Positions 31,563 through 35,300 of a DNA stretch of 64,000 bases are shown here, in pieces. Source of the stretch: Closterium sp. NIES-65 (Eukaryota > Streptophyta > Zygnematophyceae > Desmidiales > Closteriaceae). A model generated the notes under the pieces. The model worked only from the letters and a program-made list of their open reading frames with translations. It had not been told where the DNA came from and did no database searches. Within the stretch, counting starts at the first letter, position 1, and each line of letters begins with the position of its first letter. The stretch covers positions 248,001-312,000 of the forward strand of contig CANXME010000897.1 of NCBI GenBank assembly GCA_948144175.1, read 5' to 3'. A program made the translations under genes and the position numbers.

Positions 31563-32330
31563 CTAATAAGATCCTTGGGAGCGAGGCAGGTATGCAGAAG
31601 AGGAGGAAAGTGAGCCGTTTGGCAGGCCAAGTAGCTTCAGCAGTTGCCCACTGCTTACCCGCTCACTCACTCCCTCCCACTGCTGTTGCCCCTGCTCCTG
31701 CCTCTGCCACTGCTCACGCCCTAGCTGATGCTTCTCCTCTTCCGCCTGCTGCTGCTGCTGTTGCTGAAGCTCTAAGAATCGCAATCTCTCGTACAAACCT
31801 GCTGCTGCTGGTGCTGCAGCATCAAGGGATGATGTTACTGCCGCTGCTTCTGCTTCTGCTGCTGTTGCCGTGGTGGCATGTGGATGAATCTTCATATCGC
31901 CTGTGCTCTCACCACTCGAGACCATGAATGTGCCTACACTTGCACCAGCACCAGCACTAGCACTAGCACTAGCAGCACTGGCAGCAACTTCAGGAGAAGC
32001 GCATGCAACGGCAGCAGCAGAAAGAGTGGCTGATGACAAAGAGGCATAAAGACTTGCAGTGGAGGCAGAAACAGCAGCAGCAGCAGCAGCAGCAGCAGCA
32101 TCTGCTGCATCAGAACCACCCGCAGAAGCAGAAACACTACCACTAGCACCAAGAACAGCAGCACCAACCGCTGACGCACCACCAGCAGCAGCACCAGCAG
32201 CTGCAGCGGCGGCGGCGGCAGCTGCAGCGATGGAAGGGTCTTTGGCAGCCATGGCAGCAGCCCGTGCTGCAGCCTCTGCTGGCGGTGGGTGGTCAAACTT
32301 GCATGTGGCTCCGTAGCGACACGTGCCCGT
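31563..32330 (-). CDS. CCCH gene last exon (finger 3 body, Ala/Gln tail)
   Basis: Acceptor TTAATCCAG|ACGGGC. It encodes [17 protein letters not shown], then long Ala/Ser-rich sequence, a Gln run and the C terminus [14 protein letters not shown] with its stop at 31563. 256 codons including stop. Confidence 0.78.
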   Translation of the reverse strand, partial: TGTCRYGATCKFDHPPPAEAAARAAAMAAKDPSIAAAAAAAAAAAGAAAGGASAVGAAVLGASGSVSASAGGSDAADAAAAAAAAAVSASTASLYASLSSATLSAAAVACASPEVAASAASASASAGAGASVGTFMVSSGESTGDMKIHPHATTATAAEAEAAAVTSSLDAAAPAAAGLYERLRFLELQQQQQQQAEEEKHQLGREQWQRQEQGQQQWEGVSERVSSGQLLKLLGLPNGSLSSSSAYLPRSQGSY

Positions 32331-35300
32331 CTGGATTAAGGGACGCAGAGGGGGAAAGAGGGCGGGTGAACAGGAGGGGAAAAGGGATGGGGAGAAGCAG
32401 GATTGAGACGTCTTAGAGATTGACCCATAGCGACGCGTGCAGCTGCCTCTGCTGGCGGTGGGTGGTCGAACTTGCATGTGGCTCCGTAGCGACACGTGCC
32501 CGTCTGCATCGGCGGAGGAGGATGGGAGCAGGGGAGGGGAGAGATGGGGACAGCACAACATCTGAAGCACCACCGGTGTAAGCACCACCAGCGCAGCAGC
32601 AGCAGCAGCAGGAGAAGCAGCAGCAGCAGCAGCAGCAGCAGCAGCGGCGGCGGCGGCGGCGGCGGCGGCGGCGGCGGCCGCGGCGGCGGCGGCGGCGGCG
32701 GCGGCGGCGGCGGCGGCGGCGGCGGCGGCGGCGGCGGCGGCGGCGGCGGCGGCGGCGGCGGCGGCGGCGGCGGCGGCGGCGGCGGCGGCGGCGGCGGCGG
32801 CGGCGGCGGCGGCAGCAGCAGCAGCAGCAGCAGCAGCAGCAGCAGCAGGAGCGGTGGCAGCGGTAGCAGAAGCATATTAGAGAATTATGTAGACGAGGCA
32901 CAGTGGAGAATGGACTGCGCTGTAACAAGAATTAGAATAGTGAAAGGAGCATGTAGATAAGAAGAGAAGAGAGGAAAAAAAGGAGGAGATAAAAAGAGGA
33001 AGAGAGGAAAAAAAAATAGAGGAGATAAAGAGAGGAAGAGAGGGAAAAAAAGAGGAGATAAAGAGAGGAAGAGAGGAGAGATTGCTTACTTTCATGTAAT
33101 AGGCGCAGGCAATCTCATTCTGGCACATGCGATGAGGGAGGGATGGCATGGTGCAACCAGGGAGGGGTGGGGGAGAACGGGGGAGAAGGAGGGGAGGATT
33201 GGGGAGGAAACAAATTGGAAAAGAGAAGCAGAGGTTGAACAACCACACATATACGTACACACACACAGGGTATACATGAGATGAGCCCAGCAATCAACAT
33301 CGCAAAGCAGCCCCCCCCCCTCAAAACAGGTAAATTAACATGCAATACGATCCTGGAAGGGCACGCACACACACACACACACACACTCACACACACGCAT
33401 GTAGAAAATTGCATGCGAGAGGTGGTGCTGTGCAATTTTCTCTCCTGCCCGGGAAAATTGCACAGCACATTCGCACTCGCCTAGGCAAGCCTGCTGCTGT
33501 CAGTTGGACACCCCCATACCTTTACCTTTTCAGGCGTCTCATAAGTCATACCTCTCATCCGACTGACAATTGTCATACCTCTCGTCTTGGCAATCCTGCT
33601 GCTGTTAGCCGCACACCCATACCCATACCCATAACCCCACCCAAGCCTCCTCCTCCCACTCCTCCCAAACCTCCCCCCATCGCCCCTCCTCCACCTCCTC
33701 CCCCTCCGCTCCTATTCTGCACAGCCCCCCCAAGACCCCCACCAGTCCCCCCGCCTTCTCCCCCCATGCCCCCCCCTCCCCCGCCTCCGATCCCCCCCCC
33801 TCCCCCTGCGCCTGGACCTGTCCCCCCTGCTCCGCTTGCAGCAGCAGCGGAGGGGGAGGGGAGGCGCATGCGGGGATGATGGAACTTGCAGTCTGCTCCA
33901 AACTTGCACTGGCCTGTTTTCATGTAGAACTGATGGGGTGGGGAAGGGGGAGGGGAAGGGGAGGGGAAGGTGAGGGGGAGGGGAGGGGGAGGGTAGGGAG
34001 TGGGAGGGGGAGGGGGAGGGGGGGGGAGGGGAGGGGAGGGGAGAGGGAGGTGTAGGGGGAGGGGAGAGGATGGGAGAGGGAAAAGTAAAAACGCAGCCAC
34101 GGGGGAGGGGAGGGAAGCGAGAGGGCAGGACAGAATGATCTGGGGAAGTGCTTCTGGGGAAGAAGTGCTTCTGGGGAAGAAGTGCTTCTGGGGAAGAAGT
34201 GCTTCTGGGGAAGAAGTGCTTCTGGGGAAGAAGTGCTTCTGAGCCTAACGACTTCCCTGGACGCTTTTGGGTAAAGTCGACTTTCCTGGACCGGGGGAGC
34301 TTGTGATGGTGATGTGAGCCTTGCGGCTCTTGAGGTGCCTCGGAACTAGTTTCGTTTGTTTCAAGGCACCTATCTCAATCTCAGTTCCCATTTCGGAACA
34401 TCTTGAGTGTACATCGGTTGTTCTTCTCACAATCGGTTGTTCTTTCGGTTGAGGCTTGAGGCGATTGCCAATTGGTCGCTAAATCACTTTAGCAGACTAC
34501 ACTGTAACGATCGTCGATACTAGCCGAGCTTCATGCGACGCAGGCGAAATCGCATTGGCGTGCAGCAGCGGCGCGCAGCTTTACTGAAGGCACACATGTG
34601 ACAGTCGCAAATCACACAGCAACCAGATTCGTGTAATCTTCGTCAGGCAGCTGGAACAGCACAAAGCACCACAGCATCCCAGTGCATCGCATAATCGTCG
34701 TCATCAATCATCTCTCTGGTATAAACAGTTCGTCCAGGTATGTCTCATAGTGACATAATCGTGACAAAAATGACTGAATCGCGATCCAGGTATGTCTCAC
34801 TTTGGTAATCAATCACCAAATCGTGGGCAAGATCCGACATGCTTAATTTGGGGACTGTAGTAAGGTTACGGACGGGTAAATCGAATAACTATCGATGCCG
34901 ACCGGCGATTGATCGTCAAATAGTACCGCGTCCTGAGGTGCGTCCTGAGCCCTGCTGCTCGTGAGGTGCGTCAGAACTCACTGCACATTCGACTTTTGAG
35001 GCGCCTCAGAGTACTTCCCTGGGCTGACGGAGCGTGCAATGTGAGCCTTGCGGCTTTGAGGTGCCTCAGAACAGAACTCACCGCACATTCGGGCTGGCCG
35101 GGCCGTTCAGGGAAGGGGTGTGGCGAGAAGGGGTGCATGCGGGGACCTGCCGGTAGCAGCCACGCGTCTGTTAGATCCTGCTGCTGCTTGGGAAAGAGGC
35201 GGGGGGGGGGGGGGGGGGAGGGGGGGGGGGGCGGCGGGAGGAACGGGGGAAGAATGAGGGAAGGTAGGAACTTTTGAGACGTCTCGAAAGGGGTGTGGCG

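Follow-up and report, generated by a model that had tools for sequence, protein, structure and literature searches.

The duplicated start of the finger-3 exon in a CCCH gene of Closterium sp. NIES-65 is probably a target-site duplication, produced when little more than the end of a retroelement was inserted across the acceptor of that exon. The genome contains a large number of such retroelement-end insertions, flanked by direct duplications that are long and variable. The gene, which we take to be plant-like, lies in a stretch of 64,000 nucleotides (contig CANXME010000897.1, positions 248,001 to 312,000), here called the window; positions refer to the window unless a locus or contig is named.

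An earlier note on this DNA had described two copies of the exon start about 173 bp apart on the minus strand, beginning at 32503 and 32330, each with its own CAG acceptor in the phase required by exon 8. That description is exact. Positions 32509-32436 (copy A) and 32336-32263 (copy B) agree at 70 of 74 bases with a spacing of 173 bp, and an E of 1e-27 in a self-comparison of the 12-kb region rules out a chance duplication. The features concerned are listed here, with the exon numbering of the earlier note:

33090..33119, minus strand: exon 8, the first part of finger 3
32436..32509, minus strand: copy A, comprising the CAG and the start of the finger-3 exon (exon from 32503; identity to copy B 70/74)
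32336..32338, minus strand: TAA that ends the reading frame of copy A; the five bases TCCAG separate it from the exon start of copy B (32330)
32263..32336, minus strand: copy B, the exon start that continues into the Ala/Gln-rich tail (exon 32330-31563)

On this strand, the last base of exon 8 is 33090, with gtaagc after it; in translation, either copy then completes the same CCCH finger, and exon 8 joined to copy A matches PF00642 in a profile search (E 2.4e-10). Up to the arginine (24 codons) all differences between the copies are synonymous, and across the first 25 codons there are four synonymous base changes plus a V/A codon with 2 changed bases. The likeness is confined to the first part of the exon, after which the copies diverge, so that copy A is a truncated exon start and not a complete exon. 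It stays open for 55 codons and closes just before the second acceptor, as had been reported, while the frame of copy B extends to the stop at 31563 and carries the tail. Reading by eye, we saw no donor in copy A from which the frame would continue into copy B. The 30 bases before the two acceptors are 80% and 87% pyrimidine, and the intron stretches upstream of the copies show no alignment beyond that of shuffled C/T-rich sequence (global p 0.28, local p 0.45). In one paralogue of the same genome the finger-3 exon is single. The intron just upstream of copy A also contains a (CCG/CGG)n array of about 170 bp (32644-32813; 56.7 copies, 98%), flanked by CTG/CAG runs.

Finger 3 is one of several duplicated parts of this gene. 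The self-comparison, which covered 30500-42500 and also returned satellites, inverted repeats and intron repeats, revealed four further direct duplications at or in its exons. From the duplication junctions of the gene we derived the palindrome CTTTTGAGNCGNCTCAAAAG, hereafter P. The pairs and the P sites are as follows:

39065..39243, minus strand: exon-3 duplicate pair in coding sequence (39243-39164 and 39144-39065; 81%)
39145..39164: P separating the exon-3 duplicates, in frame and perfect (0 mismatches)
35113..35394, minus strand: exon-6 acceptor-side pair (35394-35288 and 35221-35113; 97%)
35271..35290: P between the exon-6 acceptor-side duplicates (1 mismatch)
34946..35091, minus strand: exon-6 donor pair (35091-35042 and 34991-34946; 78%)
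34993..35012: P between the exon-6 donor duplicates (3 mismatches)
33476..33629, minus strand: exon-7 end pair (33629-33581 and 33526-33476; 78%)
33526..33545: P between the exon-7 end duplicates (2 mismatches)
32400..32419, minus strand: degraded P-like site between copies A and B, the best site in that junction (7 mismatches)

All four of the other exon duplications therefore have P, within 3 mismatches, between their copies. The window as a whole holds five sites at this threshold against 0.01 in shuffles, a figure that is post hoc because the motif came from these very junctions; the fifth site, at 15800-15819, has no flanking repeat. The P-like site of finger 3 is equalled in 4.8-9% of comparable intervals, and copy B's side of the junction begins near it. 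From its siblings in the gene, together with this weak junction site, we infer that the finger-3 copy may have arisen in the same way as they did.

The shape of the finger-3 pair is also found elsewhere. On the acceptor side of exon 6, too, the upstream acceptor opens a truncated exon. A paralogous CCCH gene (L003, C1672:2954500-2964400) has the start of another finger exon in three copies (2961087, 2960918 and 2960777), and in an unrelated gene (L010, 6792-7130) an exon start (GEGICRAYLTGP...) occurs three times with P-like palindromes between the copies. Within the L010 triple, apparently only the last copy continues to a donor. The paralogue further has an exon end twice, the two separated by a P-like site (5 mismatches), and other acceptor-side exon starts are repeated in the neighbouring stretch, L004.

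The earlier note had interpreted the two copies as a switch between a tailed and an untailed RNA-binding protein. Whenever a duplication crosses an acceptor, the upstream copy provides an acceptor to a truncated exon, so that an early stop follows from geometry, without selection, and should not be taken as evidence of a switch; with four more partial duplications in the gene and like copies elsewhere in the genome, the proposal is left unsupported. The ratio of synonymous to nonsynonymous bases is 4:2 for copies A and B, compared with 5:10, 0:1 and 5:3 for the pairs at exons 3, 6 and 7, 2:3, 3:4 and 6:2 within the L010 triple, and 4:2, 5:7 and 4:7 within the paralogue triple. The finger-3 pattern appears suggestive but not decisive, in that it neither shows nor excludes use of copy A.

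We searched 874,075,685 bases in 2,400 contigs for P and found 13,519 perfect sites, against 0 for the reversed control. A viral or prokaryotic source for the palindrome was considered and set aside, with no match in viral contigs and only 8 matching stretches in a prokaryote collection. The direct repeat flanking P, hereafter X, was assessed in two samples, both taken from the top of listings and not by random draw: 31 loci, being the distinct places or arrays among 50 perfect sites listed, and 20 loci chosen among the listed matches to an 18-base arm pattern, most of them not in its arrays. At each of the 31 loci, 120 nt to the left of P were compared with 120 nt to the right. Satellites contaminate a background of random positions, by which many P loci are not outstanding; significance levels were therefore taken from permuted flanks, using 928 mismatched flank pairs in the first sample and 380 in the second. 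Flank repeats exceeded the 95% level at 29 of the 31 loci, the 99% level at 24, and every mismatched pair at 21. In the second sample, 19 of 20 loci exceeded the 99% level and 16 of 20 had a perfect P core. The sequence of X is specific to each locus. At the 18 single-P loci of the first sample above the 99% level, its aligned length ranges from 23 to 96 nt (median 59.5) and its identity from 76% to 100% in these 120-nt windows.

P does not mark every local duplicate. Among local duplicates chosen regardless of P in 278.6 kb, 7 of 62 had a P-like site (at most 5 mismatches); the figure for control intervals was 14 of 1240. P is thus no general mark of local duplicates, and duplication without a visible P is common, since the other 55 lack such a site. 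P or its arm also occurs in tandem arrays with units of 63, 64, 77 and 27 bp, on C18 (L054, L055), on C16 (L052, L053) and at C43:1010346-1011056, which look as if single insertions had been expanded later. Two unlinked loci, L037 (161-204) and L054 (564-607), share a different palindrome of about 44 bp (CTGTTCGGTTCGCC...GGCGAACCGAACAG).

One locus could be compared with its empty counterpart. The filled site, L091, lies in array units and consists of X, an insert with a one-mismatch P and arm, and X again. L104 and L105, which are near-identical to each other, have the upstream flank followed by a single X (together 74 of 76 bases), lack the 53 bases between the X copies of L091, and continue with a downstream flank that matches at 21 of 30 bases without gaps (0/20000 shuffles). 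We identified the join by eye before counting the matches; a scripted gapped alignment placed the downstream flank otherwise. At this one locus, the comparison fits an insertion that duplicated about 43 bp of the target or slightly more.

The source of P can be traced to a reverse-transcriptase (RT) element of about 3.5 kb, whose terminal repeat starts with the palindrome. Many P sites are extended outward, raggedly, as TCACCTCGTTAC.ATGGCAC on either side, and a 30-base arm pattern, which matched 83 and 70 times on the two strands, guided us to longer copies. L086 and L087 have direct terminal repeats of at least 321 bp (100%) and at least 292 bp (99.7%), respectively, placed 3.53-3.55 kb apart; these repeats begin with P, except for a one-base variant at the first end of L086. 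Between the repeats of L087 lie a 486-aa frame, without a Pfam match, and a 651-aa frame, the end of which passes through the downstream P. The RT match (PF00078) is weak, with E values of 0.0021, 0.0014 and 6.6e-05, all under the curated cut-off of 29.6 bits. RT was all that Pfam returned in the 651-aa frame and in L102, with no GIY-YIG endonuclease seen, and the PDB gave no match of note for the element proteins. No hammerhead ribozyme was found in the element at E up to 1 (two matches were low-complexity miRNA), and a search of the window with Rfam at gathering scores and a tRNA scan returned nothing. In L084 and in L085, its 99.8% copy, an inverted terminal repeat of about 341 bp joins a truncated RT copy at P.

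The RT protein has at least 71 scored matches in the genome. Five of these are full-length at 100% (rounded), including the query's own place, so the family has probably moved recently. On C95 and C2081, RT matches stand in tandem, 3,628 bp apart and in one orientation. The inserts resemble the end of this element beyond the palindrome itself: among the first 31 sampled P sites, with one mismatch allowed in the first 15 nt, the arms of 17 of 24 TCGA-centred sites match the start of the repeat for at least 13 nt from the centre on at least one side. By its architecture and by the order of its RT motifs, which in our understanding points to Penelope-like elements (PLEs), we provisionally class the element as Penelope-like, the RT match itself being under the cut-off.

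Two diverged relatives keep the palindrome as a palindrome. The RT frame ends in LLSRLKS in L087, in LLRRLKS in L093 (RT 46-47% identical) and in LLSRLKN in L095 (RT 44%). The centre changes from TCGA in L087 to GCGC in L093, the second change being synonymous, and GAG/CTC in L087 becomes AAG/CTT in L095, where both changes are synonymous; L098 (79%) has the TCGA form. In all, a P-like palindrome was present at 3 of the 9 RT ends fetched, and none within 3 mismatches at the other six, which include relatives of 68% and 69%; a tenth fetched stretch, L101, covers the other side of its RT copy and is outside the nine. AATT-centred palindromes (TTTTTAGAATTCTAAAAA and a relative) lie between direct repeats at L010 5154-5171 and at about 8270 of L012, and further end variants may therefore exist.

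Other repeats and elements were seen in the window. A 140-bp inverted repeat around AACCCTAAAATTTTAGGGTT (30504-30639) is perhaps a small inverted-repeat element, and long frames of copia type are found at 17225-23314, 4202-10218 and 48242-54210. Only 17225-22132 gave Pfam integrase and RVT_2 matches; the other frames were judged copia-like by eye.

These observations can be joined into one proposed course of events. The end of the element would be reverse-transcribed and would fold back at the palindrome, which would account for the symmetric arms and for the inverted repeat of L084. The product would be inserted at a staggered break of tens of bases, and fill-in of the overhangs would give X; filling in overhangs and joining the ends is described as a source of short tandem duplications in PMC8355091. 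Where X spans an acceptor, the downstream copy would remain joined to its exon and the upstream copy would become an acceptor into a truncated exon.

We consider this the most likely origin of the finger-3 copy, on the strength of the P sites in four of four siblings, the 13,519 copies of P, the flank repeats, the RT element, the empty sites and the paired changes in the palindrome. Counting against it are the 7 mismatches of the finger-3 site, the presence of P in only 7 of 62 duplicates, the unaligned intron parts and the single locus with an empty site. Each of the first two would be expected if a staggered break had been filled in and joined without any retroelement, leaving a plain tandem duplication, in which case the P-like junction would be there by chance. 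The repair literature cited above allows for such an outcome, and the 55 local duplicates without a P-like site are in keeping with it. The clear P sites at the four other exon duplications of the gene speak against this course, as does the start of copy B's side of the junction near the P-like site, and we regard it as unlikely here.

Whatever its origin, copy A might be used as an alternative acceptor to make a tailless finger protein. Both CAGs follow pyrimidine-rich stretches, the phase is correct, and over 24 codons the differences are purely synonymous. Copies of the same shape, however, arise elsewhere as by-products, and the 4:2 ratio does not decide the matter. In plants, a long stretch after the stop makes decay of a message more likely, and a transcript spliced to copy A would have at least 773 nt in that position. 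We therefore find a functional role for copy A distinctly improbable. That an assembly error doubled the exon is scarcely credible: the region is rich in repeats, with the (CCG)n array just upstream, but 4 of the 74 bases distinguish the copies, the sequences that follow them are unlike, and duplicates of this kind, of widely ranging identity, are present at other places in the genome.

Insertion of a retroelement end remains our preferred reading of the finger-3 copy, and it can be carried further, although we hold the extension to be doubtful. The palindromic end, serving as a fold-back primer, might act as a genome-wide generator of exon-edge duplications, having left thousands of inserts of about 20-60 bp, each between target copies tens of bases long. 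These would supply new acceptors and donors, and some of them, possibly including the finger-3 copy, might be spliced as alternative ends. On this extension, the palindrome would be a working nucleic-acid structure of the element, since it is kept by paired, largely synonymous changes in the RT frame across subfamilies.

For those who annotate genes in this species, the insertions offer a reason why partial exon copies are present, and they serve as a warning to gene finders and readers alike that a partial exon copy is not in each case a designed isoform. P sites also provide a way to test by what route a retroelement end that carries a conserved palindrome is inserted. The more than 13,000 tagged sites also form a datable set in which the birth, the decay and the possible use of new splice sites can be counted.

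A text search of the literature with three pieces of the palindrome found no paper, and none of the titles and abstract openings listed for duplications or for short mobile palindromes describes this system. PLEs, the closest relatives suggested above, habitually leave inverted copies. Passages of PMC11722881 describe PLEs with direct repeats, tandem copies and an RT with an endonuclease, and cite endonuclease-deficient members. Like them, the element described here has an RT between direct terminal repeats, tandem neighbours, and 5'-truncated and inverted-repeat copies. By contrast, neither endonuclease nor hammerhead was seen in it, its end is palindromic, and most of its inserts consist of about 20-60 bp of that end with target copies of tens of bases.

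Short palindromes are also spread through another green genome. In Volvox carteri, according to passages of PMC2670323, organelle palindromes have a mean of 50 nt with 3-5-nt loops and lie outside coding regions, and nuclear copies are judged to be inert organelle transfers. P differs in having no loop, in lying in nuclear contigs with flanking duplications, and in being part of an RT element. The GC clusters of yeast mitochondrial DNA, described in part of PMC4478555 as tiny mobile hairpin elements with target repeats of AG or ACT, are likewise small inserts with a target duplication, whereas X spans tens of bases. The palindromic elements of Rickettsia are bacterial, longer, and inserted in frame in genes, as P is within exon 3 here; we know of no link between them and an RT element. 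Finally, in tandem exon duplication, as treated in PMC9013439, neighbouring exon copies may compete in alternative splicing. Copies A and B could in the same manner compete for one upstream exon, with the difference that copy A is truncated and does not represent a whole exon.
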